64,000 nucleotides of DNA from Ruania zhangjianzhongii (GTDB taxonomy: Bacteria > Actinomycetota > Actinomycetes > Actinomycetales > Beutenbergiaceae). The notes beneath the pieces are model-generated. The model ran no database searches. It was not told the DNA's origin and saw nothing but the letters and a program-made list of their open reading frames with translations. Of the stretch, positions 6,831-27,480 are shown in pieces (within the stretch, counting starts at the first letter, position 1; each line of letters starts with the position of its first letter). Made by a program: the position numbers and the translations under genes. Where the stretch lies: positions 1,984,001 through 2,048,000 of the forward strand of contig NZ_CP042828.1 of NCBI RefSeq assembly GCF_008000995.1. Reading direction: 5' to 3'.

Positions 6831-6859
6831 TGGAATCGATTCCACTGGAATCGTTTCCA
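6831..6859 (+). promoter_or_regulatory. Tandem LacI-type operators
   Basis: TGGAATCGATTCCA at 6831-6844 is a perfect 14-bp palindrome with the central CG typical of LacI/GalR operators. TGGAATCGTTTCCA at 6846-6859 repeats it with a single mismatch, and their centres are 15 bp apart. They lie 56-84 bp upstream of the LacI-family gene, so autoregulation of the regulator and control of the operon behind it is the obvious inference. Confidence 0.75.
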
Positions 6860-6914: not shown

Positions 6915-7958
6915 ATGGGCAAGGTGACGCTTGCCGATGTTGCCCGCCGGGCCGGTGTCTCGCTCGCATCCACGTCGCGGGCGCTGAACGGCCAGGTGGC
7001 CAGTGCTGCCACGGTGGAGAAGGTGCACCGGGCTGCGGCCGAGCTCGGCTACATCCCGGATTCCTCCGCCCGTAGCCTGCGCACCCGCCGCACCGGCCAG
7101 CTGGCCTTCGCCGTCGCCGACATCGGCAACCCGGTGTACGTGGAGATGATGCGCGAGATCGAGTCGGTCGTTGCCGCCGAGGGCTACCGGCTGGTGGTCT
7201 CCCGCACCGGTGACGCCGACGCCACTCTGGATCTGGTCCGGGATCTGAACCGCGGCTACGTCGACGGACTCATCCTTTCCCCGCTGCGAGTGGCCCCCGC
7301 CCTGGTCGAGGCGCTCGAGCAGTCCGCCGTGCCGACCGTGGTGGTCGGCCGACTGCCCGAGGACGCCCGGGTGGATACGGTGATGGCCGACTCCGAAGGC
7401 GGTGTCGCCCTCGCCGTCGATCACCTGGTGCGTACCGGCGCCCGCCGGATCGCGTTCCTGAACGGCCCCGCGGAGACCACTCCCGGACGGGCCCGTGCGA
7501 CCGGGTTCCGGGCGGCCACCGCCGATCGGCCAGAGGTGGTCACCGGGGAGTTCCACGCAGAGGACTTCACCATCGACGCCGGATATGCGGCCGCCACGCA
7601 GATGTTCAGCGCCGAGACCGCCGAGTGGGATGCCGTGATCGCGGTGAACGACCTGGTCGGTATCGGCACCCTGCACGCGGCCCACGAGAGCGGTCTCGCC
7701 GTTCCGGAGGACGTCGCCGTGGTGGGGATGGACAACACCTCGCTCGCCGATGTCTGCCACCCCGGGCTGACCAGCGTCGATCTCGGCTCGGTCGCCCGCG
7801 GGCGCAAAGCAGCTCAGCTGCTGCTCGCCCGGATGGACGACCCCGCACTGGCGGCACGCGCCGTGCGAGTACCTCCCTTCCTGCAGGAGCGTGGCTCCAC
7901 GGTGAGTGCCCAGACCAGCCCACACACGAACGACCTGGCCGAACGGAGGGCACGGTGA
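6915..7958 (+). CDS. LacI-family transcriptional regulator
   Basis: The 347-residue protein opens with a LacI helix-turn-helix: VTLADVARRAGVSLASTSRA, followed by the hinge helix region around residues 45-58 (AAAELGYIPDSSARSLRT). The rest is a periplasmic-binding-protein-like sugar sensor domain with the characteristic VDGLILSPL, DNTSLADVCHPGLTSVD and dimerisation segments. ATG at 6915 is preferred over the GTG three bases before because GGGAGG is then seven bases upstream. Two palindromes in the promoter are its probable binding sites. The last codons overlap the first permease gene (GTGA). The effector is unknown, presumably the substrate or an intermediate of the downstream pathway. Confidence 0.92.
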   Translation: MGKVTLADVARRAGVSLASTSRALNGQVASAATVEKVHRAAAELGYIPDSSARSLRTRRTGQLAFAVADIGNPVYVEMMREIESVVAAEGYRLVVSRTGDADATLDLVRDLNRGYVDGLILSPLRVAPALVEALEQSAVPTVVVGRLPEDARVDTVMADSEGGVALAVDHLVRTGARRIAFLNGPAETTPGRARATGFRAATADRPEVVTGEFHAEDFTIDAGYAAATQMFSAETAEWDAVIAVNDLVGIGTLHAAHESGLAVPEDVAVVGMDNTSLADVCHPGLTSVDLGSVARGRKAAQLLLARMDDPALAARAVRVPPFLQERGSTVSAQTSPHTNDLAERRAR

Positions 7959-8905
7959 CCGCGACCGCCACCACCCACGCTGCGCCGTCGCCGGCTGCCG
8001 GCCGGAACGGCAAGACGCGTGGACCCCGGCAGCGTGCGGAGCGACGCGAGGCGATCGCCCTCGTCATCCCCGCGCTGCTGCCGATCATCGTATTCTCGGT
8101 GATCCCGCTGCTCGCCGGTGTGATGCTCGGCTTCACCGACGCCACCCTGGCGCGCAACGCCGACATCAACTTCGTCGGTGTGGACAACTTCGTCGAGCTG
8201 GCCGGCGACGCGAGGTTCTGGAGCTCGTTCGGCATCGGCATGGTCTGGGCCACGTCGGTAGCCGTGCTCACCGGGGCGTTCGCCCTTGGACTGGCTTCGC
8301 TGCTGAACTCACGGCTCCGGTTCAAGTCGCTCACCCGGATCATCGTGCTCATCCCGTGGGCGATGCCCCCGGTGGTGACCGGGATCCTCTGGCGGATGAT
8401 CTACGACGTCAACTCCGGACCGCTGAACGCGGCGCTCGGCTGGTTCGGCCTCGGCCCGATCAACTTTCTCGGCGACTTCTCCACCGCTCTGCCGGCCGTG
8501 ATCGTGGTCGGGATCTGGTCCGGGCTACCGCAGACCACGGTGCTGCTGCTCGCCGGGATGCAGTCCATCCCCGCGGAGCTGCACGAGGCAGCCGCGATGG
8601 ACGGTGCGAACGGGTTCCGCCGGTTCTGGCACGTCACCCTGCCCGGGCTGCGGTCGGTCCTGATCGCGATCACCAGCATCGACTTCATCTGGAACTTCAA
8701 CGACTTCGGGATCATCTACGTCCTCACCGAGGGCGGGCCGGGCGGCCGGACGATGACCCCGCCGCTGTTCACCTATCTGGAAGCGTTCCGCAACCGTGAG
8801 ATCGGGTACGCCTCGGCGATGGGTGACGTGCTGGTGATCGCGGTGCTGCTGATCCTGTCCATCTACATCGTTGCCCAGTTCCGGCAGCAGAAGGTGGGGC
8901 GGTGA
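7955..8905 (+). CDS. Sugar ABC transporter permease, CUT1 MalF-like
   Basis: This 316-residue permease has a basic N-terminus, six predicted spans and the EAA coupling loop EAAAMDGANGFRRFWHV at about residues 208-224. The sequence order (ALLPIIVFSVIPLLAGV, then PWAMPPVVTGILWRMIYD, then GIWSGLPQTTVLLLAGMQSIP) is typical of MalF-like subunits of CUT1 importers for oligosaccharides and glycosides. Translation starts at a GTG overlapping the LacI stop codon, with GGAGGG just upstream. It partners with the next gene. No ATPase is encoded in the operon; in actinobacteria a shared ATPase encoded elsewhere (MsiK type) commonly serves such systems. Confidence 0.93.
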   Translation: MTATATTHAAPSPAAGRNGKTRGPRQRAERREAIALVIPALLPIIVFSVIPLLAGVMLGFTDATLARNADINFVGVDNFVELAGDARFWSSFGIGMVWATSVAVLTGAFALGLASLLNSRLRFKSLTRIIVLIPWAMPPVVTGILWRMIYDVNSGPLNAALGWFGLGPINFLGDFSTALPAVIVVGIWSGLPQTTVLLLAGMQSIPAELHEAAAMDGANGFRRFWHVTLPGLRSVLIAITSIDFIWNFNDFGIIYVLTEGGPGGRTMTPPLFTYLEAFRNREIGYASAMGDVLVIAVLLILSIYIVAQFRQQKVGR

Positions 8906-9738
8906 TGAACAGCAGTCCTCTGGTGCGCGCGGTGCAGTACGTGCTGCTCGGCGTCTTCCTGCTCTTTCTCGGTTTCCCGGTGCTGTGGATCCTCTCCGCG
9001 TCGTTCAAGTCCTCGGCCGAGCTGAACTCGCTCTCGGCCAACCTGATCCCGCAGGAGTGGGTGTTCACGAACTTCTCCGAGGCGATGGAGCGGCAGAACC
9101 TGCTCGTCTCTGCGGGGAACTCCCTGCTGGTGGCGGTGTGCACGATGGTGATCGGGGTGGTCCTCACCCTGCCGATGGCCTACGCCCTGGCGCGGCTGCG
9201 CGGGAAGCTACGGGCGGCCGGCACGGTATGGATCCTGGCCACCCAGGTGTTCCCGCAGATCCTCATCATCATCCCGCTGTTCCTGGTGCTGCGAACCCTG
9301 GTGCTGAACGACACCCTGTTCGGTCTGATCCTCGTCTACGTCACCTTCACCCTGCCGTTCACGCTGTGGATGATGCAGGGGTACGTGGCCGCCATTCCGC
9401 GGGAGCTCGAGGACGCCGGGGCGATGGACGGGGCCGGCAGGTTCCGGGTGCTGGTGCACATCGTCTTCCCGCTGCTGCGCCCAGGGCTGATGGCCACGGC
9501 GATGTTCACGTTCGTCTCGGCGTGGAACGAGTTCTTCCTCGCCCTCGTGCTGCTGCAGAGTCCGGAGCTGTTCACGCTGCCGATCACCCTGCGCTCCTTC
9601 CTCGGTGCCGAGGGGCAGACCCAGCTGGGTCCGCTCGCTGCCGGTGCCCTGCTCGCGACCATCCCCTCGGTGATCGTGTTCTCCTTCCTCCAGAAAAAGC
9701 TCACCGGCGGGATGCTCGCCGGTGCCGTCAAGGGCTGA
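8905..9738 (+). CDS. Sugar ABC transporter permease, CUT1 MalG-like
   Basis: The product of 277 residues is the MalG-type second permease: short N-terminus, six spans, and the EAA loop as LEDAGAMDGAGRFRVLVHIV at about residues 165-184, followed by the conserved FPLLRPG. The segment SFKSSAELNS after the first span and AWNEFFLALVLLQSPE near the end are also typical. The ATG at 8905 shares one base with the stop of the preceding gene; a GTG three bases earlier is an equally possible start. It is expected to form the membrane channel with the MalF-like partner. Confidence 0.92.
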   Translation: MNSSPLVRAVQYVLLGVFLLFLGFPVLWILSASFKSSAELNSLSANLIPQEWVFTNFSEAMERQNLLVSAGNSLLVAVCTMVIGVVLTLPMAYALARLRGKLRAAGTVWILATQVFPQILIIIPLFLVLRTLVLNDTLFGLILVYVTFTLPFTLWMMQGYVAAIPRELEDAGAMDGAGRFRVLVHIVFPLLRPGLMATAMFTFVSAWNEFFLALVLLQSPELFTLPITLRSFLGAEGQTQLGPLAAGALLATIPSVIVFSFLQKKLTGGMLAGAVKG

Positions 9739-9768
9739 CGCAGAAGCCGGCCCGGAAAGGTACTTGAC

Positions 9769-11052
9769 ATGAACAAGCGCGTACTCGGCGTCGTCGCCAC
9801 CCTGGCGGCCGGCACCTTGGCCCTCACGGCCTGCCAGCAGGGCAGCGCCTCCGGCGGAGGCGGTGAGGACGCCGACGGTGTGGTCACCCTCCAGTTCCAG
9901 TCGCTCTCCGACCAGCCCGCCACCCAGGAGGCAGTCCAGTCCGCGGTGGACTCCTGGAACGAGGACAACCCGGAGGTGCAGGTACAGATCATCCAGGCCG
10001 GGTGGGACGGTGCCTACGACAAGCTGGTCACCCAGTTCACCGGCGGCACAGCACCGGACATCATCCACTTCGAGGCCGCCAGCATCGTGCCGTTCGCGAT
10101 GGACGGCTACCTGGCCGACCTCTCCGGCGGGCTAAGCGAGGAGCGCACGTCCGACATCTCCGAGGGCGTGTGGGACTCGGTCACCGTGAACGACGAAGTG
10201 ATCGCCTACCCCTCCACGATGCAGTCATACATGGTGTTCGCCAACGCCGACCTGCTCGAAGACGCCGGAGTGGAGATCCCCACCGGCGACTCGATGACCT
10301 GGGACCAGCTGGCCGAGATCGCCGAGGCCACCACCACTGAGGACACCTACGGCCTCGGGTGGGGCCTGGGCTCCCCGGCAGCCACCGTGATGACCCTCGC
10401 CCCGGGCTTCGGCGGCGACTTCTTCTCCGGCACCGGTGAGGACGTGCGGATCGACGTGTCCGACGCCGAGCTGGAGGTTCCCGAGCGGATCCACGAGATG
10501 GCCTACGACGACGAGTCCCTGGACCCGGTGAGCCTGACCCAGTCCGGTTCGGATGTGCTCGCCTCGTTCTACGGCGGCACTGTCGCGATGACCGTGCAGG
10601 GCTCCTTCCAGGCGGCGAACATGGCTACCGACGCTCCCGAGGACATGAACTGGGTGGCGCTGCCGCCGCTGGCCGGCTCCGAGGGCCCGTTGCAGGCCGC
10701 GAACCCGCAGACCTACTCGGTGAACGTGGACTCGCCGAACGTCGATGAGGCGATCGCGTTCCTGGACTACTTTGCCTCCCCGGAGACGATCGCGGCGATC
10801 GCGCAGGCGGATGCCCTGATCCCGGCCTCCGAGTCGGCTCAGGAGATCGTTGCCACCGAGACCGGCGGGGAGAACGGCTGGGACCAGATCCTGGCCAGCG
10901 CCGCCGGCTTCGAGGGGGCCCCGTTCCTGCAGGCGGACGGGTACGCGGAGTGGAAGGACACCGTGCTCAACTCGGCGCTGCAGCAGTACCTGGGTGATCA
11001 GATCAGCTCCGAGGAGCTCGCGCAGCAGCTCACTGACGGCTGGCAGAACTGA
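9769..11052 (+). CDS. Sugar ABC transporter substrate-binding lipoprotein
   Basis: The 427-residue protein carries a lipoprotein signal peptide ending LALTAC, with the lipidated cysteine at residue 22, then a Gly-rich linker. The mature protein has the SBP_bac_1 fold signature, with VTLQFQSLSDQPATQE at the N-terminus and GTAPDIIHFEAASIVPFAMD near residues 87-106. It should bind the sugar or glycoside for the CUT1 permeases just upstream, from which it is separated by 30 bp containing GGAAAGG. A hairpin follows the gene, so this abundant component can be expressed above the downstream enzymes. The ligand cannot be inferred from the protein; the enzymes downstream suggest a ribosyl- or glycosyl-containing compound. 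Confidence 0.92.
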   Translation: MNKRVLGVVATLAAGTLALTACQQGSASGGGGEDADGVVTLQFQSLSDQPATQEAVQSAVDSWNEDNPEVQVQIIQAGWDGAYDKLVTQFTGGTAPDIIHFEAASIVPFAMDGYLADLSGGLSEERTSDISEGVWDSVTVNDEVIAYPSTMQSYMVFANADLLEDAGVEIPTGDSMTWDQLAEIAEATTTEDTYGLGWGLGSPAATVMTLAPGFGGDFFSGTGEDVRIDVSDAELEVPERIHEMAYDDESLDPVSLTQSGSDVLASFYGGTVAMTVQGSFQAANMATDAPEDMNWVALPPLAGSEGPLQAANPQTYSVNVDSPNVDEAIAFLDYFASPETIAAIAQADALIPASESAQEIVATETGGENGWDQILASAAGFEGAPFLQADGYAEWKDTVLNSALQQYLGDQISSEELAQQLTDGWQN

Positions 11053-11076
11053 CCCACCCCCGCCGGGAGGTACCCC

Positions 11077-11168
11077 CTTCGCTTTGCCGCATTCGGTCGC
11101 CTGCCGATGGGCCTGGGCGACAGAACGCGGCAAAACGAAGACAGGGCGACAGAACGCGGCAGAACGAG
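11077..11168 (+). repeat. Hairpin plus third repeat copy between binding protein and enzymes
   Basis: Segments 11077-11101 and 11116-11140 are inverted copies of 25 bases with three mismatches, separated by a 14-base loop. A third copy of the right arm follows directly at 11145-11168 in the same orientation. The core is GCGACAGAACGCGGCA. Its position between the binding-protein gene and the enzyme genes suits an attenuator or an mRNA-stabilising stem. The extra direct copy suggests a dispersed repeat rather than a simple terminator. No run of T follows. Confidence 0.65.
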
Positions 11169-11207
11169 GTCGCGCGAGACGAGCATCAACAAGTGGAGGA
11201 ACACAAC

Positions 11208-12371
11208 GTGAGTTGGCTTCAGGACCGGGTGGCGGGTGTGCTCGCCGGCGCCGCTGTGGGAGATGCGCTCGGCGGCGCGACCGAGGGGTGGACCCCGGAG
11301 CAGATCGAGGAGCGGCATGGTGGCCGGGTCACCGGGGTCGTCGGCCCGTTCCTGCCCGACTGGCGTACTGCCCGCCCGATCGCCCCGTATCACAAGGGCG
11401 ACGGACACGTCACCGATGACACCTTGATGACGCACGCGCTGGTGGAGGTGTATGGCACCAGGCGCAGCCATCTCACCGCCCACCACATGGCCAGCGACTT
11501 GGTGCCCTTGATGATCGGCGAACGCCGTTGGGTACCCGAGCTCGAGGACGAGGCACTCATCCTGCAGCGGGTGTTTCTCGCGGAGAAGTGGCTGGTGGCC
11601 AAGCTGCACTACGGCCACGCCGACCCGCGCGAGTCTGGCGTGGGCAACATCGTCAACTGCGGCGCGACGATGTACATGGCTCCGGTCGGCCTGGTGAACC
11701 TGGGTGACCCGGCAGCGGCCTACGCCGAGGCGATCGACCTGGCCGGAGCGCACCAGTCCTCCTACGGGCGCGAGGCTGCCGGCGTGTTCGCCGCTGCGGT
11801 GGCCGCTGCCTGTGCGCCCGGAGCGAGCGTGGCCGATGTGCTCACCGCCAGCCGAGCCCTGGCCAAGGACGGCACCGCCGCCGCGATCGAGGCGGTCCTG
11901 ACCGCCGCCGAACAGTTCCGCGCCGCCGGTGGGTCCGACGATCCGCGCGAGCTGAACCGGATGCTCCGCGCGGCGGTAGCTCCCTATGACACCGTCGGGG
12001 AGACCTACCGGGCTCCGGCGATGGACGCCCGCCTGCCGTCCCGGACCAAGTCGATCGAGGAGCTGCCGGTGGCCCTGGGTCTGGTGGCGGCCCACGAGGG
12101 CGACCTGCGCGCCGCCGTGCTCGATGCGGTGAATTACGGCCGGGACTCGGACTCGATCGCCACGATGGCCGGCGCTATCTGCGGCGGCCTCGCCGGTCAG
12201 GCCGCCGTGCCTGCTGAGTGGCTCACCGAGGTGACCCACGCGAGCAAGCTGGACCTGGACGCCGTCGTGGCATCGATGACCGAGACGGTGCGGGTCGTGG
12301 CTGCCGACGATGCCCGCCGAGCTCAGGAGCGGGCCGGCCTGCTCGAGGCGGTGCTGGGGGCGACGGCGTGA
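11208..12371 (+). CDS. ADP-ribosylglycohydrolase-family protein (first copy)
   Basis: This 387-residue protein has the family's magnesium-binding pattern: an early GAAVGDALGG, then VTDDTLMTHAL at about residue 72 (the TDD[TQ] motif), and a late GRDSDSIATMAGAICGGLAG. Well-studied members remove ADP-ribose from Arg, Ser or nitrogenase, but many family members in sugar operons act on unknown N- or O-glycosides. The GTG at 11208 is chosen because GGAGGA lies seven bases upstream; an in-frame GTG at 11193 would put the binding site inside the gene. The gene overlaps the next by four bases. In this context hydrolysis of an imported ribosyl-type glycoside is more plausible than protein de-ADP-ribosylation. 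Confidence 0.88.
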   Translation: MSWLQDRVAGVLAGAAVGDALGGATEGWTPEQIEERHGGRVTGVVGPFLPDWRTARPIAPYHKGDGHVTDDTLMTHALVEVYGTRRSHLTAHHMASDLVPLMIGERRWVPELEDEALILQRVFLAEKWLVAKLHYGHADPRESGVGNIVNCGATMYMAPVGLVNLGDPAAAYAEAIDLAGAHQSSYGREAAGVFAAAVAAACAPGASVADVLTASRALAKDGTAAAIEAVLTAAEQFRAAGGSDDPRELNRMLRAAVAPYDTVGETYRAPAMDARLPSRTKSIEELPVALGLVAAHEGDLRAAVLDAVNYGRDSDSIATMAGAICGGLAGQAAVPAEWLTEVTHASKLDLDAVVASMTETVRVVAADDARRAQERAGLLEAVLGATA

Positions 12372-13870
12372 GACTCACCTGGGCTCAGCCGGAGGACCTG
12401 GTGGCGCACGAGCTGGTGGCGCTGCGAGAGCAGGGTGCCGACGAATCGGCGCTCGCCGCGGCTGCAGACCGGTGGCAGGCGGGTGGCGGGTCGGTGCTCC
12501 CCGAGCGTGCCGGTGCCAGCGCGAACCCGGCGTCCCCGCAGCTGCGCGCCCTCGCTCGCGAGGTGCTCGCCGAGCTTGCCGCGCTGCAGCCGGTCAGTGC
12601 TGGCGAACCCGATGAGTGGAGCGCCATCGCGGCACTCCTCCCAGCCAAGAGCAGGCCGGCGACGGCGGAGCTCACCGGGGCGGCATCGCCGCACCTGGCG
12701 GAGATTGGCCGGGTGCGAGGTGCCTGGTGGGGTCGGTCCGTGGGCTGCCTGCTCGGCAAACCGGTGGAGAAGATCCCGCGGGAGGGGATCGAGGAGATCG
12801 CCCGCGCGACCGGAACCTGGCCGATCACCGGTTACTTCACCGCTGTCGGCCTGCCCGAGGAGACGGTGGCCCGGTGGCCGTGGAACCGCCGCTCCGCGCC
12901 GACCTCGCTGCGCGAGAACATCAACGGGATGCCCGAGGACGACGACCTCAACTTCCCACTGCTTGCCCTGGACCTGCTGGAGGTGCACGGCGCAGACCTG
13001 ACCACGGCGGACGTTGCGCAGTCCTGGCTGGCGAACCTGCCCGCCGGCCGCGTGTTCACCGCGGAGCGGGCCGCGTACCGGAACCTGCTCGAGGCCCGCC
13101 CGGTGCCGGAGACCGCCACGCACCAGAACCCGTTCCGAGAGTGGATCGGTGCCCTGATCCGCACCGACGTCTACGGCTGGGCCCACCCGGGCAACCCGAT
13201 CGCCGCGGCCGAGCTCGCCTGGCGAGACGCCCGGCTCAGTCACACCCGCAACGGCCTGTACGGGGCGATGTGGGCAGCCGCCCTGTGCTCGTCGGCGCTG
13301 GTGGCCAGATCGGTGGACGAGGTGCTGGACGCGGGGGAGTCGGTACTGCCCCCGGACTCTCGGCTGGCCGCCGCAGTCCAGGATGGCCGCCGGATCGGGC
13401 TCGCGCTGCGCGCCGGCTCGGTCACGGAGGCCGAGGCGCTGGACCACCTGCATGCGGGCTACGGCCACCTGCACTGGGTGCACACCCTCAACAACGCGGC
13501 GCTGATCGCTTGCGCGCTCGCCGCCGCCGGCCAGCCGCCCGCCCCCGCGGGCCAGCCGCCCACCCCCGCGGGTGACCTTTCCGTCGCGAGAACGCGATCT
13601 GGCGACGAGAATGTCACCCACCGGGAGGCGCCGCCGGTGGACTTCGGCCGTGGCATCCGGCTGGCGGTGGCCGCGGGCTGGGATACCGACTCGGCCGGCG
13701 CCACTGTCGGTTCCGTGCTCGGCGCCCTGGTCGGCCAGGACGGGATCGACCCGGCCTGGACCGCCCCGCTGCACGACCGGCTCGCCACGTCGCTACCGGG
13801 CGCCCCGGAACGTTCGCTGACCGAGCTCGCCGACCGCACCCGCGCCCTACCGGGGAGGATGGGCAGATGA
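12368..13870 (+). CDS. ADP-ribosylglycohydrolase-family protein (second, longer copy)
   Basis: The 500-residue protein has an extra N-terminal stretch of about 115 residues with no recognised domain, then RGAWWGRSVGCLLGKP, the acidic motif MPEDDDLNFPLLAL in place of TDDT, and the late GWDTDSAGATVGSVLGALVG. These match the distinct ADP-ribosylglycohydrolase branch in which the second motif is EDDD(L). The segment at about residues 386-424, directly before the last metal motif, is a Pro/Ala/Gly tandem repeat followed by a stretch encoded by a DNA hairpin; relatives have only a short loop there. Start GTG overlaps the stop of the first copy. The two copies may act as partners or on successive bonds. 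Confidence 0.82.
   Translation: MRLTWAQPEDLVAHELVALREQGADESALAAAADRWQAGGGSVLPERAGASANPASPQLRALAREVLAELAALQPVSAGEPDEWSAIAALLPAKSRPATAELTGAASPHLAEIGRVRGAWWGRSVGCLLGKPVEKIPREGIEEIARATGTWPITGYFTAVGLPEETVARWPWNRRSAPTSLRENINGMPEDDDLNFPLLALDLLEVHGADLTTADVAQSWLANLPAGRVFTAERAAYRNLLEARPVPETATHQNPFREWIGALIRTDVYGWAHPGNPIAAAELAWRDARLSHTRNGLYGAMWAAALCSSALVARSVDEVLDAGESVLPPDSRLAAAVQDGRRIGLALRAGSVTEAEALDHLHAGYGHLHWVHTLNNAALIACALAAAGQPPAPAGQPPTPAGDLSVARTRSGDENVTHREAPPVDFGRGIRLAVAAGWDTDSAGATVGSVLGALVGQDGIDPAWTAPLHDRLATSLPGAPERSLTELADRTRALPGRMGR
13525..13619 (+). repeat. Tandem repeat and hairpin element inserted inside a gene
   Basis: Two imperfect copies of a unit around CCAGCCGCCC.CCCCGCGGG (encoding GQPPAPA and GQPPTPA) are followed by an inverted repeat: arms 13570-13587 and 13602-13619 match at 15 of 18 positions around a 14-base loop containing GAACGCGAT. 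The reading frame is kept. The arms begin and end GGGTGAC/GTCACCC, as does an intergenic hairpin at 38018-38073, suggesting a shared repeat family. Confidence 0.65.
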
Positions 13871-14832
13871 ACGTCGTAGTGGTCGGCAGCGTGAACACCG
13901 ATGTGGTGGCCCGGGTGGCCCGCATCCCCAGCCCGGGGGAGACACTCCTCGGCTCGGACCTGGCCCGCTACGGCGGGGGTAAGGGGGCGAACCAGGCAGT
14001 TGCCGCGGCTCGGGCCGGCGGGGCGGATGTCGCGTTCGTCGGTGCCGTCGGCGAGGACCCCGACGCCGACGCCCGCCGCACCGCGCTGGAGGCCGACGGG
14101 ATCGACACCACCGGACTGGTCACCGTGCCCGGTCCGACCGGCACCGCGCTGATCACCGTGGCCGATGATGGGGAGAACGCCATCGTGGTGGCCGCCGGCG
14201 CGAATGGCGCCCGTGAGCAGCTCTCCGCCGGTCAGCTCGAGGTCCTCGCCCGCGCCGAGGTGGTGATCACGCAGCTCGAGGTACCGATCCCGCTGGTACT
14301 GCAGGCCGGCCGGCGCCGCCCGAAGGGCAGCCTGTTCCTGCTGAACGCCGCCCCGTCCACGGCGATGACCGACCCGGCCACCGCCGCGGACCTGCTCGCC
14401 GTGACCGACGTGCTGGTGGTGAACGAGCACGAGCTCGCCGATATCGCCGGAGGCATCGGCACCGAGGCTGCGATCACTCAGGTCACCGGGCAGGTGCGGG
14501 TACTGATCGTCACCCTCGGTTCCGCCGGCGCCCTGGTCGCGGTCGGCACCGAGCGCCGCGAGGTGGCCGCGTTCGGTGTCACCGCGGTGGACACCACCGG
14601 CGCCGGGGACACCTTCTGCGGCGTGCTCGCCGCCCGGTTGGCTGGGGTCGCAGAGTCTGGCGCCGATCCCGATATCGACGTCATCGCCGAGGCTGCCCGG
14701 GTCGCCTCGGCAGCCGCCGCACTCGCGGTCGGCACCGCCGGTGCCCAGGAATCGGTCCCCACCGCAGCGGCTGTCGCCGCACAGCTTGCCCGTACCCCGC
14801 ACGCCACGTCCGCAGGAGAGAACACAGCATGA
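13867..14832 (+). CDS. Ribokinase-family (PfkB) sugar kinase
   Basis: The 321-residue protein has the two PfkB signatures: the early GGGKGANQAVAAARAG at about residues 37-52, which binds the sugar, and the late DTTGAGDTFCG at about residues 241-251, which carries the catalytic aspartate and anion hole. Its opening MNVVVVGSVNTDVV, with the Asp of the NxD motif, is characteristic of ribokinase itself rather than of fructokinase or adenosine kinase. It probably phosphorylates ribose, or a closely related sugar, released by the glycohydrolases encoded directly before it. The ATG overlaps the previous stop (ATGA), so expression is coupled. The substrate remains an inference from sequence type and neighbours. 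Confidence 0.88.
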   Translation: MNVVVVGSVNTDVVARVARIPSPGETLLGSDLARYGGGKGANQAVAAARAGGADVAFVGAVGEDPDADARRTALEADGIDTTGLVTVPGPTGTALITVADDGENAIVVAAGANGAREQLSAGQLEVLARAEVVITQLEVPIPLVLQAGRRRPKGSLFLLNAAPSTAMTDPATAADLLAVTDVLVVNEHELADIAGGIGTEAAITQVTGQVRVLIVTLGSAGALVAVGTERREVAAFGVTAVDTTGAGDTFCGVLAARLAGVAESGADPDIDVIAEAARVASAAAALAVGTAGAQESVPTAAAVAAQLARTPHATSAGENTA

Positions 14833-16862
14833 GTGGTGGTTTCGACCCGCTCGTCCCCCGACCGATCGACCTGCCCACCGAGGTTCCGCTCGATGCGGAC
14901 CTGACCGCCGGTGAGCTGGCGGAGACCTTCGACGAGGCGAAGATCTTCGCCGCACCCGGCAGCCTCGCCGATCCACCCGATGCGGCTACCCTGGACCAGT
15001 GGCGCAGCCAGCTGCGCTCCTGGCGGGCCGGTGCACACCGGCGTTACGGATCGCCGTCGCGCTATGACCGCCCCGAGGCGCAGTGGACCGCCCAATGCTT
15101 CACCGTGGCGCAGGTCTGGCTCTGGGACGAGTTGTTCTTCGACTTCGAGGCCCAGTGCTTCACCCCGCAACGGTTCCTCGCCGACGCTCAAGCGCGGTTC
15201 GGCGGTCTGGACGGGATCGTGCTCTGGCACGCCTATCCGATCATCGGCATCGATGACCGCAACCAGTGGGACTTCTACGACGTGCCCGGTCTGGCCGAGG
15301 CAGCCGCCACGCTCCATGCGGCTGGGGTGGCCGTCTTCGTGGACTACAACCCGTGGGACACCGGCACCCGCCGCGCCCAGGGCACCGACGCCGAGGAGCT
15401 CTCCGCGGTGGTGCGCCACCTGGACGCCGACGGGGTCTTCCTGGACACGATGAAGAAGGCTGACCCGGAGTTCGTCGCCGCCCTCGAGGCTGCGCGCCCG
15501 GGAATCGGCCTGGAAGGGGAGTCCAAGCTCGTCACCGAGCGGATCGGCGACCACGCCCTGTCCTGGGCGCAGTGGTTCGCCGACTCGGAGATCCCCGGAG
15601 TCCTGCGCGCGCGCTGGTTCGAACGCCGGCACATGCAGCACCACATCCGCCGCTGGAACCGGGACCACGGCGCCGAGTTGCGCTCCGCCTGGCTGAACGG
15701 CGTCGGGATGATGGTCTGGGAGGTCGTCTTCGGCGTGTGGGTCGGCTGGAACTCCCGTGACGCGGCCACCTTGCGCCGGATGCTGCCGGTGCAGCGCACC
15801 ATGCACTCCTGGCTCACCTCCGGGGAATGGACTCCGCTGGCGGTGTGCGCGCCACCGGTGTTCGCCTCGGCGTTCGAGCTCGACGGCGTCACGCTGGTCA
15901 CGCTGGTGAACACCAGCGGCGAGGACGTCACCTATCGCACGGCCGGCTCGGGCTCCTGGCTCGCCCTGCATGAGGGCGACGGCGTTGCCCACCCGGGAGC
16001 GGTCACCCTCACCGTGCCCGCTGGGGGCGTGGCCGCCGTCGTGCAGATCGCCGACGGCGTGACCTGCCCGGCTGAGGTCACTCACCTGGCCAAGGTGCTC
16101 GCCGGTGAGCCGGCAGTGCTCGATGCGTCCTTCCCGCACCGCCGGGCGCGGCGGCTGAGCCCGCCGCTCTGGTCCGGTCAGCAGGCCGACCCGGAGATCG
16201 TGGCGGGGTTGCATACCGGCGCCGTCGCAGTGCCCGCGGGAGAGCAGGTGCTCACCGTGCGGCACCGCCAGCGCGAGACCGGAATGTACGACGGCGCTCC
16301 GTACGTCGAGGAGTGGAAGCCGCTCCCGCCGCGGCTGCACGACCAGCGCACGCTGGAGCGCGCGGTGACGATCGGCGCCGGGGTGCACGTCGGTGCCCGC
16401 GAGGTCTCCGCGGCCGACTACGCACGGTTCCTGGCCGACCTGGGCGAGACCGGCGATGGTGACGGTTCGAACGGTAGCGAGGTTGCGCCGTCGACGGCCT
16501 CGGACACCGCACCGGCCACCGGGGTGACGTTCGCCCGGGCGCGGCAGTTCGCCGCCTGGGCCAGCGGCCGGCTACCGACCGAGGACGAGTGGCAGCTCGC
16601 CGCCGCGCAGGACGGCTTCGAGCGCCGCACGCCCGCGGTGTGGAACTGGACCGAGTCGGAGTTTTCTGACGGCCGGACCCGGTTCGTGATGCTCAAGGGC
16701 GGCGCCGAGCACCGCAGCGAGGGTTCGGACTGGTACGTCGACGGGGGAGTGCAGGAACCGGAGTTCGCGCTGAAGTTCCTGCTCCCCGGGCTTGGCGTGG
16801 ACGCGTCGCCCTCGATCGGGTTCCGCGTCTGCTGGGATCTCGCGGAGGAGGACGCGCAGTGA
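14829..16862 (+). CDS. Fusion protein: TIM-barrel glycosidase-like domain plus FGE-like domain
   Basis: The 677-residue protein has no signal peptide. Residues about 60-330 look like a (beta/alpha)8 barrel of glycosidase type: GIVLWHAYPIIGIDDRN, then AVFVDYNPWDTGTRR, then DGVFLDTM and GIGLEGESKL, where Asp and Glu end successive strands as in retaining glycosidases. A beta-rich segment follows. Residues about 515-670 resemble the formylglycine-generating-enzyme/SUMF1 fold (VGAREVSAADYARFL, ASGRLPTEDEWQLAA, and a final GFRVCWD). The FGE active-site cysteine pair is not evident: the only late Cys is in GFRVCWD. This domain is therefore probably structural or substrate binding. Overlap with both neighbours places it firmly in the operon. 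The family is not one I can name. Confidence 0.65.
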   Translation: MSGGFDPLVPRPIDLPTEVPLDADLTAGELAETFDEAKIFAAPGSLADPPDAATLDQWRSQLRSWRAGAHRRYGSPSRYDRPEAQWTAQCFTVAQVWLWDELFFDFEAQCFTPQRFLADAQARFGGLDGIVLWHAYPIIGIDDRNQWDFYDVPGLAEAAATLHAAGVAVFVDYNPWDTGTRRAQGTDAEELSAVVRHLDADGVFLDTMKKADPEFVAALEAARPGIGLEGESKLVTERIGDHALSWAQWFADSEIPGVLRARWFERRHMQHHIRRWNRDHGAELRSAWLNGVGMMVWEVVFGVWVGWNSRDAATLRRMLPVQRTMHSWLTSGEWTPLAVCAPPVFASAFELDGVTLVTLVNTSGEDVTYRTAGSGSWLALHEGDGVAHPGAVTLTVPAGGVAAVVQIADGVTCPAEVTHLAKVLAGEPAVLDASFPHRRARRLSPPLWSGQQADPEIVAGLHTGAVAVPAGEQVLTVRHRQRETGMYDGAPYVEEWKPLPPRLHDQRTLERAVTIGAGVHVGAREVSAADYARFLADLGETGDGDGSNGSEVAPSTASDTAPATGVTFARARQFAAWASGRLPTEDEWQLAAAQDGFERRTPAVWNWTESEFSDGRTRFVMLKGGAEHRSEGSDWYVDGGVQEPEFALKFLLPGLGVDASPSIGFRVCWDLAEEDAQ

Positions 16863-18046
16863 CCGCGCCGCTGGAGGACCTGTTCGTGGTGGACGCCTCC
16901 ACCTTGTTCGCCGGACCGATGGCCGCGATGCACCTGGGCGATATGGGCGCCCGGGTGGTGAAGGTGGAGCACCCACGCCGTCCGGATCCCTCCCGGGGGC
17001 ACGGGCCGGCGAAGGACGGCGAGAACCTGTGGTGGAAGACCCTCGGGCGGAACAAGCAGACCGTGACGCTCGACCTGCACACCGAGAGTGGACAGGACGC
17101 GTTCTGCCGGCTCGCCGAGCGGGCCGATGTGGTGATCGAGAACTTCCGGCCGGGCACCCTGGAACGCTGGGGACTTGGCTACGACCGGCTCGCCGCAGTG
17201 AACCCGCAGCTGGTGCTGGCTCGGGTGACCGGCTTCGGGCAGAAGGGCCCGTACCGGTCCCGGCCCGGCTTCGGCACCCTGGCCGAGGCGATGAGCGGGT
17301 TCGCCGCGATGACCGGAGAAGCCGGCGGGCCGCCGACGCTGCCGCCGTTCGGCCTGGCGGACGGGATCGCGTCCCTGACCACCGCGTACGCGGTGATGAC
17401 GGCGCTGCATGCGCGCTGGCGAACCGGTCGCGGCCGGGAGCTGGACGTGGCGATCATCGAGCCGATCCTGGCGATGCTCGGTCCGCAGATCACCCGCTGG
17501 GACCAGCTCGGCGCCGTGCAGCCGCGGACCGGGAACCGCTCGGCGAACAATGCACCGCGGAACGCGTACCTGACCGCGGACGCGAAGTGGGTAGCGGTGA
17601 GTACGTCCGCGCAGTCGATCGCCGAGCGGGTGATGGAGCTGGTCGGCCGGCCGGAGTTCGTGGCCGAGGACTGGTTCTCTTCGGGGGCCGGGCGCGCCCA
17701 GCATGCCGATGAGCTGGACGACGCCGTGGGTGGGTGGATCGCGCAGCGCTCCCGGGATGAGGTGGTGGCCGAGTTCGAGCGCGTGCACGCCGCGGTGGCG
17801 CCGATCTACGACGCCGGGGACATCGTGGCCGACCCGCAGTTCCAGGCACTGGGGACGGTGCACCGGATCGAGGACCCGGTGCTGGGGGAGATGGCCATGC
17901 AGGGGCCACTGTTCCGGATGTCCGAGGGCGAGCCGCGGATCGAGTGGACCGGGCGGGCTCCCGGAGCGGACACCGACGCGGTGCTGGCCGAGCTGGGCTT
18001 CTCGGCCGCGGAGATCGCTGCGATGCGGGAGACGGGCGCATGCTGA
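16859..18046 (+). CDS. Class III CoA-transferase (CaiB/BaiF family)
   Basis: The 395-residue protein follows the CaiB/BaiF pattern from the start: LFVVDASTLFAGPMAAMHLG, then ARVVKVEHP, then GRNKQTVTLDL and ENFRPGTLERWGLGY. The catalytic aspartate that forms the acyl-anhydride intermediate corresponds to D168 in the motif FGLADG. Family members move CoA between carboxylic acids, for example in carnitine, oxalate, itaconate and citramalate metabolism. Because a CitE-like lyase follows, the likely scheme is activation of a hydroxy- or dicarboxylic acid followed by carbon-carbon cleavage. GTG start overlaps the previous TGA. How this joins the glycohydrolase half of the operon is not known. Confidence 0.9.
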   Translation: MTAPLEDLFVVDASTLFAGPMAAMHLGDMGARVVKVEHPRRPDPSRGHGPAKDGENLWWKTLGRNKQTVTLDLHTESGQDAFCRLAERADVVIENFRPGTLERWGLGYDRLAAVNPQLVLARVTGFGQKGPYRSRPGFGTLAEAMSGFAAMTGEAGGPPTLPPFGLADGIASLTTAYAVMTALHARWRTGRGRELDVAIIEPILAMLGPQITRWDQLGAVQPRTGNRSANNAPRNAYLTADAKWVAVSTSAQSIAERVMELVGRPEFVAEDWFSSGAGRAQHADELDDAVGGWIAQRSRDEVVAEFERVHAAVAPIYDAGDIVADPQFQALGTVHRIEDPVLGEMAMQGPLFRMSEGEPRIEWTGRAPGADTDAVLAELGFSAAEIAAMRETGAC

Positions 18047-18873
18047 GCTCGTTGTACGTGCCCGGCGACCGGCCGGACCGGGTGGCCAAGGCGCTCGCTT
18101 CCGGCGCGGACTGTGTGATCGTCGACCTGGAGGACGCGGTGGCCGCGTCGCAGAAGGAGGCGGCGCGGGACTCCTTGGCTGAGGCGCTCGGCGACGCTGC
18201 CGATGCTGGCGGTGTTCACGGAAGCGGCCCAGCGGTGCAGGTGCGGGTGAACGCGCGCGGTTCGGCGTGGCACGAGGCGGACCTCGCCGCAGTGGCTCTT
18301 CTGGATGAGGCGGTCGGCGTACGGGTGCCGAAGGTTTCCGGTGCGGACGATGTGGCGGCGGTCCAGGCGGCGTTGCCCGGCCGCGAGGTGCACGCCTTGA
18401 TCGAGACGGCGCTGGGCGTGGAGCACGCCTTCGAGATCGCGTCCGCCGGGGTCGCCTCCGTGGCGCTCGGCGAGGCCGACCTGCGGGCGGACCTGGGCCT
18501 GGCGGCGGGGGAGGAGGGTGAGCCGGGCCTGGCCTGGGTGCGCTCACGCCTGGTGGTGGCGGCTGCGGCCGCGAGCCTACCGGCGCCCCAGATGAGCGTC
18601 TACGCGGATGTGCGCGACCTCGAGGGGCTCGCGCACAGCTGCCAGCGCGGGCGCGCACTGGGGTTGGTGGGCCGTACTGCGATCCACCCGGCCCAGCTGC
18701 CGGTGATCCGGGACGCGTTCGCGCCCACTGACGCCGAGATCAGACGCGCCCGCGAGATCATCGACCGGGTCGGCGCCGCGGAGGCGGACGGCTCCGGGAC
18801 CGTGGTCCTCGAGGACGGCACGTTCCTGGATGTGGCGATGGTGCGGGCCGCGCGGCGGATGCTGAGCATATAG
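18040..18873 (+). CDS. CitE-like HpcH/HpaI aldolase-family lyase
   Basis: The 277-residue protein is a CitE/malyl-CoA-lyase type beta-barrel: SLYVPGDRPDRVAKAL with the substrate-binding Arg, VIVDLEDAV with the first acidic residue, VRVNARG, HALIETALGVEHAFEI with the magnesium-binding Glu, GEADLRADLG with the magnesium-binding Asp, and GRTAIHPAQL near the end. Such enzymes cleave citramalyl-CoA, malyl-CoA or citryl-type thioesters to acetyl-CoA and an oxoacid. The ATG at 18040 lies inside the end of the CoA-transferase gene (7-bp overlap), implying coupled translation with the enzyme that would make its CoA ester. It is the last gene of the operon, because a separate promoter and operon begin after the stop. 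Confidence 0.87.
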   Translation: MLSSLYVPGDRPDRVAKALASGADCVIVDLEDAVAASQKEAARDSLAEALGDAADAGGVHGSGPAVQVRVNARGSAWHEADLAAVALLDEAVGVRVPKVSGADDVAAVQAALPGREVHALIETALGVEHAFEIASAGVASVALGEADLRADLGLAAGEEGEPGLAWVRSRLVVAAAAASLPAPQMSVYADVRDLEGLAHSCQRGRALGLVGRTAIHPAQLPVIRDAFAPTDAEIRRAREIIDRVGAAEADGSGTVVLEDGTFLDVAMVRAARRMLSI

Positions 18874-18905: not shown

Positions 18906-19175
18906 ATGAGCACCGGTCCTGAGATCAGCCAACGTGACCTCCGGATGCGGTCGAAGGAGATCATGGACGCCGTGGAGCGTGGCCAGACGTACACGGTCAC
19001 TCGGGACGGGCGTGGCATTGGTGAGTTGATCCCCATCCGTGAACCTCGGCGATTCGTCTCCCGGGAGGCGTTCGCTCGCAGTTCGAGCCGTGCGCCAAAG
19101 GTAGACCTCGAGGCGTTCCGCCGGGACCTCGACGCCGCTGCCGACCCGATGTTTGACGATCCATATGCGCGCTGA
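18906..19175 (+). CDS. Phd/YefM-type antitoxin
   Basis: This 89-residue protein matches the PhdYefM antitoxin fold: an N-terminal DNA-binding half beginning ISQRDLRMRSKEIMDAVERGQTY, the TVTRDGRGIGELIP hairpin, then a flexible, charged C-terminal tail (VDLEAFRRDLDAAADP) that usually wraps around the toxin. It is followed, with an 11-bp overlap, by a PIN-domain toxin, the standard order for VapBC-type modules. It should neutralise the toxin and repress its own promoter via the upstream palindrome. Confidence 0.88.
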   Translation: MSTGPEISQRDLRMRSKEIMDAVERGQTYTVTRDGRGIGELIPIREPRRFVSREAFARSSSRAPKVDLEAFRRDLDAAADPMFDDPYAR

Positions 19176-21206: not shown

Positions 21207-21926
21207 ATGACACACGAGGAGGTGAGCCTGGGCAGGCTTCCGCTTTCACATCAGGCTCAACGTCGAATCAGGCAGTACATCGTCGATCGAGAGTTGCGTC
21301 CCGGCGACGTGTTGCCCAATGAGGGTGAGTTCTGCCAGATGCTCGACATGAGCAAGTCGTCGGTGCGGGAGGGGATCCGGCGACTCGAGATGCTCGGCAT
21401 CGTGGACGTGCGCAGGGGTCGCGGCCTCTACGTCGGTGCCTTCAACTTGAAGCCCGTTATTGACGCGTTGCCCTACCAGCTCACCGTGGACGAAACACCG
21501 CTCCACGAGATTCTGCAGGTCCGCGCTGCGATCGAAGAGGGGCTGATCATTCAGGCGAGCAGGCAGCTCAGCGAGCGTCACCTGGCCGACCTTGACGATC
21601 TCGTGGCACAGATGCGTGAGCAGTCCCAGGCAGGTGAGGTGCCACCGGAGGTTGACCACGCCTTCCATCTTGCTCTCTTCGCGCCGTTGGAGAACCAGAT
21701 GCTGAACAAGCTCATCGAGACGTTCTGGGAGGTCTACGCACGTTTCGCGGCCACTGCCACAGCACCGATCAACCATCACGCCGTCGAGGACCATCACGAG
21801 ATCGTCAGTGCGATCCGCAGCGGTGACGATCAGCGGATGACTCGGGCGGTGGCAGTGCACTTCGCGCCGATCCAGAGCACCGTCGAGTCCGTTCCCACCC
21901 CTTCTCCCGAGGAGCGGCGAGCATGA
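21207..21926 (+). CDS. FadR-subfamily GntR transcriptional regulator
   Basis: The 239-residue protein has an N-terminal winged helix (SHQAQRRIRQYIVDRELRPG, then NEGEFCQMLDMSKSSVREGI and a RRGRGLYVG wing), followed by an all-helical FCD effector domain. The metal/ligand-binding residues of FCD domains appear in VDHAFHLALF and AVEDHHEIV, with a terminal Asp/His cluster. Its stop overlaps the nanA start (ATGA), so it is the first gene of the operon it presumably controls, like NanR in other bacteria. The palindrome between -35 and -10 of its promoter is its likely binding site, with N-acetylneuraminate or a related metabolite as probable inducer. Confidence 0.9.
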   Translation: MTHEEVSLGRLPLSHQAQRRIRQYIVDRELRPGDVLPNEGEFCQMLDMSKSSVREGIRRLEMLGIVDVRRGRGLYVGAFNLKPVIDALPYQLTVDETPLHEILQVRAAIEEGLIIQASRQLSERHLADLDDLVAQMREQSQAGEVPPEVDHAFHLALFAPLENQMLNKLIETFWEVYARFAATATAPINHHAVEDHHEIVSAIRSGDDQRMTRAVAVHFAPIQSTVESVPTPSPEERRA

Positions 21927-22816
21927 ATCTGGCCGGAATTCACCCAGCGTTGATCGCCACGTACGATGATAAGGGTGCCCTCAGCATGGAGCGGCAAGCG
22001 GCGCTGATCGACCACGTGCTCGGCCAGGGTGTCGACGGGGTATTTGTATCCGGCTCGACAGGCGAGGCATACCTGCAGAGCGTGAGTGAGCGGCAGGAGA
22101 CGATCTCGGCTGCGATCGAGCAGGTAGCGGGGCGCGGTCCGGTGATCGCCCACACCGGCAGCCTCGATACCCGCACCACGCTCGCCCTGACCGAGTACGC
22201 CGTTGCGGCGGGTGCCGATGCGGTCAGTGCGGTCACACCGGTCTACTACCACTATGAAGAGGCACAGTTCGAGGCCTACTTTCGGGAGGTATCCGCGGCC
22301 GCAGGCCAGACACCTCTGATCGCGTATCACATTCCTGGACGAAGCCACGTTCAGCTCTCACCCGACTTCTTCCTCCGGTTAGCCGATGACGGCGTACTGC
22401 AAGGTTTGAAGTACACGGCAACGGATCTGTATCCGCTCGCCGAGGTGGTGCGGCGTGCCCCGCAGGACTTTCTCGTCTACAACGGTTCCGACGAGGTGCT
22501 CCTCGGTGGCCTGGCGCTCGGTGCGCATGGCGGCATCGGCTCCACCTACAACGCGATCGGCCGCGTCTACCGGCGCATCTTCGACCTAGCCGCAGCTGAG
22601 GATCTCACCGCCGCCCGTCACCACCAGACGATCGCGAACCGATTTATCAGCGAGATGAACAACTACGACTTCCTCGTCTTTCTCCGGCAGGTACTGCGCC
22701 ACGACGGTGTGGAAACTGGCCACGGACGAGCCCCGCTCCCGACAGTCACTGATGCTCAGCAGCGCGTGATCGATGACGTGCTGTCCACGTTTTCCGCCAA
22801 GGAGTCCCACCGGTGA
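21923..22816 (+). CDS. nanA: N-acetylneuraminate lyase
   Basis: The 297-residue protein is a class I aldolase of the DHDPS/NanA family that splits N-acetylneuraminate into pyruvate and N-acetylmannosamine. The match to NanA is specific: GSTGEAYLQSVSER at residues 44-57, DAVSAVTPVYY, the catalytic tyrosine Y135 in IAYHIPGRS, the Schiff-base lysine K163 in GLKYTATDLY, and YNGSDEVLLGG followed by GGIGSTYN. DHDPS enzymes lack the GDLY/TDLY and DE positions seen here. It sits between the regulator and an unknown protein with overlaps on both sides. The enzymes for N-acetylmannosamine use (NanK, NanE, NagA, NagB) are not in the window and must be elsewhere if the pathway is complete. Confidence 0.93.
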   Translation: MNLAGIHPALIATYDDKGALSMERQAALIDHVLGQGVDGVFVSGSTGEAYLQSVSERQETISAAIEQVAGRGPVIAHTGSLDTRTTLALTEYAVAAGADAVSAVTPVYYHYEEAQFEAYFREVSAAAGQTPLIAYHIPGRSHVQLSPDFFLRLADDGVLQGLKYTATDLYPLAEVVRRAPQDFLVYNGSDEVLLGGLALGAHGGIGSTYNAIGRVYRRIFDLAAAEDLTAARHHQTIANRFISEMNNYDFLVFLRQVLRHDGVETGHGRAPLPTVTDAQQRVIDDVLSTFSAKESHR

Positions 22817-24216: not shown

Positions 24217-24225
24217 GCCGGCCTG

Positions 24226-25149: not shown

Positions 25150-25151
25150 CC

Positions 25152-26051: not shown

Positions 26052-26107
26052 TCCCGATATCTCGCTCGTCATCGACGAGCGCACAACGAAGTGAAAGGAA
26101 ATGTGCT

Positions 26108-27451: not shown

Positions 27452-27480
27452 GGCCGGCGATGACGCGGAAGGGACCACAG

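Follow-up and report, generated by a model that had tools for sequence, protein, structure and literature searches.

A conserved operon that links ADP-ribosylglycohydrolase-type enzymes and a glycosidase-like barrel protein to a CoA-transferase and a CitE-like lyase

Layout and Regulation of the Operon

The window analyzed here is a 64,000-nucleotide stretch of Ruania zhangjianzhongii (contig NZ_CP042828.1, positions 1,984,001 to 2,048,000). It carries a ten-gene operon encoding a LacI-family regulator, an importer of two permeases and a solute-binding protein (SBP), and six enzymes: two hydrolases of the ADP-ribosylglycohydrolase-type family PF03747 (ARH1 and ARH2), a PfkB kinase, a TIM barrel fused to a domain resembling formylglycine-generating enzyme (FGE; the fusion is termed TIM/FGE), a CaiB-type CoA-transferase, and a CitE-like lyase (Table 1). 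Pfam profiles and the open reading frames bore out the family calls made for all ten genes in a preliminary description of this DNA. Two BPD_transp_1 permeases next to an SBP_bac_1 protein identify the importer as a CUT1 system, and Pfam detected neither an importer ATPase nor a dehydrogenase among the ten proteins. The parts of the operon belong to known families, and their combination appears to be undescribed: searches of the open-access literature, judged in part by title, gave no account of it.

The preliminary description had reported unbroken translational coupling. This holds for the six enzymes, whose five junctions each overlap by 4–7 nucleotides, and stop and start codons also overlap at the LacI/permease A and permease A/permease B junctions. 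The chain is broken, however, at the only two gapped junctions, permease B/SBP (30 nucleotides) and SBP/ARH1 (155 nucleotides, assuming the GTG at 11208 as the start of ARH1).

Table 1. Features of the operon, in positions of the window
Feature	Position	Strand	Basis and remarks
Two tandem LacI-type operators, TGGAATCGATTCCA / TGGAATCGTTTCCA	6831..6859	.	Pattern match upstream of LacI
LacI-family regulator	6915..7958	+	Pfam; closest NCBIfam model RbsR, score under its cut-off
CUT1 permease A	7955..8905	+	Pfam (BPD_transp_1)
CUT1 permease B	8902..9738	+	Pfam (BPD_transp_1)
CUT1 solute-binding protein (SBP)	9769..11052	+	Pfam SBP_bac_1; N terminus lipoprotein-like by eye
Hairpin in the SBP/ARH1 gap	11077..11140	+	25-nucleotide arms, 88% complementary; direct copy of part of an arm at 11144-11167
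ARH1 (P0005), PF03747 hydrolase	11208..12371	+	Metal motifs TDDT and DxDS
ARH2 (P0006), divergent PF03747 hydrolase	12368..13870	+	EDDD and DTDS motifs; conserved ∼110-residue N-terminal extension
PfkB kinase, ribokinase-like	13867..14832	+	Under TIGR02152 cut-off; absent from some orthologous operons
TIM/FGE fusion (P0008)	14829..16862	+	Glycosidase-like barrel, residues ∼27-414; C-terminal FGE-like domain without cysteine pair
CaiB/family III CoA-transferase (P0009)	16859..18046	+	CoA_transf_3; conserved D168
CitE-like β-hydroxyacyl-CoA lyase (P0010)	18040..18873	+	HpcH_HpaI; conserved Arg, Glu, Asp

The operator pair gives the only exact matches to TGGAAWCGWTTCCA in the whole 5.1-Mb genome, and even with one mismatch allowed only 0.02 chance matches are expected in the window. 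A comparison of LacI operators, which the preliminary description had proposed, showed the operator to be retained: 63 of 69 relatives have a match, with no more than two mismatches, in the 250 bp upstream of LacI, as against at most one of 69 in each of 20 shuffles. LacI thus looks like a single-target regulator. The hairpin between SBP and ARH1 can fold stably (z −3.16). Together with a 24-nucleotide direct repeat, this strong hairpin forms an element (11077–11167) whose exact motif is unique in the genome, two further copies carrying two mismatches each, and which is possibly an mRNA-stabilizing or attenuating element 3′ of the SBP gene. Rfam and tRNA scans of the window gave no matches. 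The promoter and terminator scan returned no promoter-like site. It gave a single terminator-like site, which falls within permease B on the minus strand, whereas shuffled sequences gave more.

Conservation of the Gene Order

We compared 90 loci, comprising 80 found with an alignment of TIM/FGE and 10 from the host's family; the former were taken as the best 80 from 320 confirmed relatives, a sample that favors intact operons. Identity thresholds for the gene matches at these loci, and for the conservation alignments used below, were chosen by us. The gene order is identical in 68 of the 90 loci (57 with and 11 without the kinase). Such sharing is far beyond chance, and the operon, which many soil actinobacteria have in this order, is old and real.

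Within the family, relatives of ARH2 occur in 17 of 24 genomes, self included. Thirteen neighborhoods of family matches in other genomes were inspected, and the 10 best all read LacI-PermA-PermB-SBP-ARH1-ARH2-(kinase)-TIM/FGE-CaiB-CitE, the kinase being present in six; three weaker matches (L048–L050) do not show this order. Of five window genes that flank the operon, none has a match in the stretches of these 10 operon-bearing loci, and a single one is matched at 2 of the 80 other loci. TIM/FGE, ARH1, ARH2, CaiB, and CitE are all present in 65 of the 80 TIM/FGE loci. Sixty of these 65 also hold LacI, both permeases, and SBP, with the kinase as well in 53. Three loci (L056, L071, and L083) are cut by contig ends. 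The search for the same gene order in other Actinobacteria, likewise suggested beforehand, was therefore successful and reaches beyond that group: metagenome-assembled genomes (MAGs) of Devosia and Pelagibacterium (Alphaproteobacteria) and of a member of the Trueperaceae (Deinococcota) carry the enzyme set in rearranged order.

An even draw of 296 genomes from the class, the host's own among them, gives a less biased picture than the best 80 loci. We applied cut-offs of E ≤ 1e-60 for ARH1 and TIM/FGE and E ≤ 1e-90 for CaiB; in most genomes only six first-look candidates (four for TIM/FGE) were scored. ARH1 was found in 47 genomes, CaiB in 82, and TIM/FGE in 18. All 47 ARH1-positive genomes contain CaiB (Fisher p 1.5e-32, calculated as if the genomes were independent, which they are not), and 35 genomes have CaiB without ARH1. 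The two genes lie on the same strand within 8 kb in 45 of the 47, with ARH1 upstream of CaiB in 44 of these 45; the matches fall on different contigs in G144 and G154. Seventeen of the 18 TIM/FGE genes are near both ARH1 and CaiB.

The operon persists, minus the kinase, in one small actinobacterial genome (L190; 1.8 Mb, 98% complete), suggesting that its substrate is worth retaining even where the genome is small.

The PF03747 Hydrolases and the Kinase

Both hydrolases exceed the PF03747 gathering score of 26.2 (ARH1, 155.4 bits; ARH2, 145.2 bits). Members of this family carry two metal motifs, T-D-D near the N terminus and D-x-D-[ST] near the C terminus. ARH1 possesses both (Thr-69, Asp-70, Asp-71, and Thr-72; Asp-313, Asp-315, and Ser-316), and they are kept in at least 97% of 76 aligned rows. 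In ARH2 the first motif is replaced by EDDD (Glu-190 to Asp-193, in at least 97% of 74 rows), and the C-terminal motif is retained (Asp-439-Thr-Asp-Ser-442). Rows were dropped from the alignments of several operon proteins (five LacI, three ARH2, one kinase, three TIM/FGE, one CaiB, and one CitE). Among NCBIfam equivalog models, ARH1 stays well below the cut-offs for DraG (TIGR02662; 34.9 of 337.05 bits) and Tri1 (NF041672; 37.8 of 490), and ARH2 matches no NCBIfam model. A single-sequence fold of ARH2 reached a predicted local distance difference test (pLDDT) score of 39.7, and this model is of no use.

The kinase matches the PfkB profile of Pfam and misses the ribokinase cut-off of TIGR02152 (231.8 of 299.65 bits). 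This cut-off is strict, since no protein in the eight genomes searched passes it. The four family genomes whose operons are without the kinase each carry another ribokinase-like gene elsewhere.

A Candidate Glycosidase with an FGE-like Domain

The preliminary description of P0008 as a fusion of a TIM barrel with an FGE domain proved correct as to the fusion itself and can be refined as to both parts. The structure model (alignment of 33 sequences, pLDDT 89.8) contains a barrel that resembles enzymes of glycoside hydrolase (GH) families GH13 and GH129 and GH27-like enzymes at 8–16% identity among the 50 structural alignments shown. The matches from Foldseek and VIA are mostly to GH13, a family with many entries, and Foldseek also lists GH30. 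The modeled barrel places Asp-206 after strand 4 and Glu-231 after strand 5, both conserved; we take these positions to be those of the nucleophile and the acid/base in GH13. Barrel fold, aspartate, and glutamate are common to TIM/FGE and the GH13, GH129, and GH27 enzymes. In contrast to them, TIM/FGE has an additional C-terminal FGE-like domain and matches no Pfam glycosidase profile at E ≤ 0.001, the GH13 profile included.

The C-terminal part matches the FGE-type profile PF03781 (48.2 bits). Its best solved match is SUMF2 with the larger alignment A3 and FGE itself with the smaller A1, where SUMF2 ranks third; the VIA rows barely cover this part of the model. FGE carries a pair of cysteines in its active site. 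After residue 413, TIM/FGE has a single cysteine (Cys-668), and the positions conserved in 89 rows include no cysteine. FGE activity was rejected on the absence of the pair, and the domain more likely serves in binding than in catalysis.

Relatives of TIM/FGE are also found with no operon within the stretch, in Verrucomicrobiota, Chloroflexi, Planctomycetota, Acidobacteria, Bacteroidota, and other MAGs (L119–L124 and L127–L132). The candidate glycosidase family extends beyond this pathway.

The CoA-transferase and the CitE-like Lyase

CaiB matches CoA_transf_3 with 378.2 bits, and Asp-168, presumably catalytic by analogy with formyl-CoA transferase, is conserved in at least 97% of 79 rows. Among solved structures, its relatives are headed by 4ed9 and YfdE, with succinate-hydroxymethylglutarate CoA-transferase following among the closer ones. 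The lyase scores 113.8 bits with PF03328. Arg-70, Glu-123, and Asp-148 (in a P0010 numbering that carries one extra N-terminal residue), which we take to be residues of the metal and substrate site, are conserved in at least 97% of 78 rows. Its scores lie under the NCBIfam cut-offs for RipC (143.9 of 375), citrate lyase CitE (136.8 of 443.4), and malyl-CoA lyase (41.8 of 500).

As to the substrate, a study on the CitE-like protein Rv2498c describes cleavage of (S)-citramalyl-CoA and (R)-hydroxymethylglutaryl (HMG)-CoA and weaker cleavage of malyl-type CoA esters (PMC6689899), and a review covers succinyl-CoA:malate/citramalate CoA-transferases together with citramalyl-CoA lyases (PMC8307300). 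We also examined CaiB loci away from ARH1. From the 82 CaiB-positive genomes of the class draw, 34 places in 33 genomes were taken; ARH1 lies within the stretch in eight of them and not in 26. Among these 26, frames were listed for nine loci and neighbors annotated with Pfam for four (L192, L199, L200, and L201). In all four, a CaiB 61–66% identical to P0009 adjoins a CitE-type gene. A DctM-type TRAP permease follows directly downstream in L200 and L201, whose genomes have ARH1 on another contig, and sits at a distance of ∼4 kb in L199, where RraA-like aldolases are present as well; L192 features an MmgE/PrpD protein and a branched-chain-type ABC binding protein. These neighborhoods point to a free hydroxy-dicarboxylate as the putative CaiB substrate.

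Oxalate or formate chemistry was considered for CaiB and dropped, as the CitE-type lyase would then presumably have no role. A bacillithiol-type glucosaminyl-malate was also considered as the substrate and set aside, with nothing to speak for or against it.

Variant Loci on Plasmids and in Streptomyces-like Genomes

ARH1 matches occur in 21 plasmid records, four of which were read at the locus. The Sinorhizobium plasmid (L186) holds LacI, the importer, two ARHs, UgpC, the CoA-transferase, and the CoA-ester lyase, with neither kinase nor TIM/FGE, and an Ensifer plasmid (L188) gives the same match pattern. Two relatives of TIM/FGE were found in the plasmid collection.

All six loci fetched from one Streptomyces-like genus (L165–L170) read ARH1-ARH2-kinase-CaiB-CitE. 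TIM/FGE was not found in this genus in the class draw at E ≤ 1e-60. Additional upstream ARH-like matches were detected with tblastn in five of the six, and Pfam assigns the first upstream ARH-like gene of L167, and that of the sixth locus, L170, to PF03747. L169 has trpA, a trpB-type gene, trpC, and lgt among its neighbors. In Streptomyces coelicolor, two papers give the DraG homologues as SCO2028-2031 (PMC9411070) or SCO2028-2030 (PMC5087735), and a third places a trp locus at SCO2038 (PMC5036795). The trp neighborhood of L169 and the published DraG homologues beside the trp locus make L165–L170 likely counterparts of SCO2028-2031, which probably belong to the present system.

At four loci (L109, L110, L111, and L185), Pfam identifies one or two further ARH genes in the interval from SBP to ARH1. 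This expansion suggests that several types of linkage are hydrolyzed. On the Sphingopyxis plasmid pSFD01 (L037, 2327–8379), the order ribokinase-TIM/FGE-GH127-like-CoA-transferase follows a TonB receptor, a possible Gram-negative analogue with a GH127-like enzyme in place of the ARHs.

Proposed Pathway and Alternatives

The interpretation that we favor, with a confidence somewhat above even, is that the operon serves the LacI-controlled import and catabolism of a glycoconjugate, yielding a furanose-type sugar and a β-hydroxy-dicarboxylic acid. The CUT1 importer would take up a small glycoside, and ARH1, ARH2, and the GH13/GH129-like barrel, to judge from fold and conserved catalytic-type motifs, would split its glycosidic bonds in the cell. 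Either the PfkB kinase or a ribokinase encoded elsewhere would then phosphorylate the freed sugar, which is probably ribose or a furanose like it. The other part of the same conjugate may be a C4–C6 β-hydroxy-dicarboxylic acid such as citramalate, HMG, or methylmalate. CaiB would transfer CoA to it, probably from succinyl-CoA, and the CitE-like lyase would cleave the acyl-CoA into acetyl-CoA or propionyl-CoA and an oxo-acid; both reaction types are known for the respective families. The pathway drafted in the preliminary description thus stands as far as the gene set fits import, glycosidic cleavage, and the activation and cleavage of an acid, but sugar phosphorylation by the operon's own kinase is dispensable.

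New with respect to that description is an esterase of the PF00756 type, matched at 18 of the 80 TIM/FGE loci and 2 of the 10 family loci. Eleven of these genes lie between TIM/FGE and CaiB, one between CitE and TIM/FGE, seven downstream of CitE, and one, encoded on the opposite strand, next to a TIM/FGE gene that has no operon. Most were recognized by similarity to those of L093 or L118; Pfam was run on the esterases of L045, L093, L097, L118, and L132. Several N termini look like signal peptides by eye, and in some species an apparently secreted esterase may first act outside the cell to strip off an acyl group. It is plausible that the natural substrate of some hosts contains an ester.

Several observations weigh against the glycoconjugate pathway. 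LacI, the kinase, CaiB, and CitE all score under every curated cut-off listed. The kinase is missing from many orthologous operons, including 4 of the 10 in the family, for which reason we propose a ribose-type sugar only with reserve. For the esterase, the window genome offers a single weak match (21 bits) and no close homologue, and 12 of the 80 TIM/FGE loci, some on short contigs, hold no other operon gene at the thresholds used. The Streptomyces-like loci L165–L170 show no importer or TIM/FGE match in the stretch. A Nonomuraea plasmid (L185) combines LacI, the importer, four ARHs, and the kinase with no CaiB, CitE, or TIM/FGE within the stretch, and the Pseudochrobactrum plasmid (L187) has LacI, the importer, ARH1, and UgpC only, with just a CaiB of 32% identity elsewhere on the plasmid. 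The acid branch is thus the usual, not the universal, companion of ARH1, and these last two loci slightly lowered our confidence.

Alternatively, the substrate could be a sugar or glycan esterified with a hydroxy-dicarboxylic acid (e.g. HMG or a malate-type acid), so that CaiB and CitE would take the acyl group while the ARHs and the barrel act on glycosidic bonds. The esterase in or beside the operon genes at 20 of the 90 loci agrees with this, as do the HMG-type CoA-transferase among the closer solved relatives of P0009 and the acceptance of (R)-HMG-CoA by a CitE-like lyase (PMC6689899). We nevertheless regard it as unlikely: no esterase was matched in the stretches from the remaining 70 loci, of which some are cut by contig ends, the lack of a close homologue in the window genome counts here too, and esterases that look secreted would free the acid outside the cell, where it would need an importer of its own.

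A further alternative takes the name and fold of PF03747 at face value. The enzymes would then remove ADP-ribose from proteins, nucleic acids, or small molecules, with the catabolic neighbors serving only the salvage of ADP-ribose or ribose, and the S. coelicolor DraG/ARH homologues are indeed listed as putative ADP-ribosyl hydrolases (PMC5087735, PMC9411070). This explanation appears improbable, as Pfam finds no ADP-ribose transferase among the ten operon proteins and the linked CoA-transferase and CoA-ester lyase are left without a role. SCO2028 and SCO2030 were moreover inactive on uracil-linked ADP-ribose according to a 2026 NAR paper (PMC13036486), which may include other substrates. Least probable is that an unassigned operon enzyme forms the acid from the sugar itself, with no conjugate, and that CaiB and CitE finish an unusual (branched) sugar: the Sphingopyxis cluster described above does lie beside several dehydrogenases and an ICL/PEP-mutase-type lyase, but its CoA-transferase is only ∼32% identical to P0009 and the window operon has no dehydrogenase.

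With less assurance than for the glycoconjugate pathway itself, and short of even confidence, we tentatively propose that these operons represent an undescribed pathway in at least three phyla. In it, PF03747 enzymes and a new barrel/FGE-like glycosidase family would serve nutrition as glycosidases that cleave a (ribo)furanoside of a β-hydroxy-dicarboxylic acid, an acid which CaiB would then activate and the CitE-like lyase split, and SCO2028-2031 would belong to this pathway and not to ADP-ribosylation signaling. If so, an ARH group listed among the uncharacterized hydrolases of Streptomyces in papers on ADP-ribosylation would gain a metabolic role, TIM/FGE would be a new candidate glycoside hydrolase family beyond the Pfam glycosidase profiles, and a sugar-acid conjugate would be common enough to preserve the order of a nine- or ten-gene operon across many genera.

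Comparison with Known Systems

In Bacteroides thetaiotaomicron, the rus locus employs ribose-type kinases and nucleosidase/ARH-type hydrolases in nutrition, with SusCD-type import across the outer membrane. Unlike the window operon, it includes, to our knowledge, no CoA-transferase or lyase. The DraG/ARH ADP-ribosyl hydrolases share the Pfam family with both window ARHs and the metal motifs with ARH1, whereas the window enzymes are linked to a CoA-dependent acid pathway and, in ARH2, EDDD stands where the first metal motif usually lies.

Escherichia coli yegTUV likewise combines a transporter, the PF03747-type enzyme YegU, and the PfkB-type kinase YegV under a single-target repressor, YegW/GgaR; none of yegT, yegU, and yegV is reported to have a clear function (PMC10819704). 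It differs from the window operon in that import is of the MFS and not the ABC type, a single ARH is present where the window has two and other operons more, and the regulator is of the GntR and not the LacI type; it has no CoA-transferase, lyase, or TIM/FGE protein. The dissimilation of itaconate and citramalate (PMC12290011, PMC6689899) resembles the proposed acid branch in the CoA activation of a C5 dicarboxylate and a CitE-type C–C cleavage, there by a CitE-like (S)-citramalyl-CoA lyase. That route, however, includes an itaconyl-CoA hydratase, whereas the window operon has no such hydratase, carries a sugar importer and hydrolases, and encodes a lyase far under the RipC cut-off.

Neighboring Genes

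Directly 3′ of the operon lies a small gene (18906–19172) with a subthreshold match to the Phd/YefM antitoxins (25.9 of 29.8 bits), at the end of which another frame begins by eye. The next operon (21207–29706) encodes a GntR-like regulator and a dihydrodipicolinate-synthase/NanA-like protein, both assigned by eye, along with ABC permeases and a sialidase-like protein that combines BNR repeats with LamG and FIMAH domains, and looks like an operon for the use of sialic acid.

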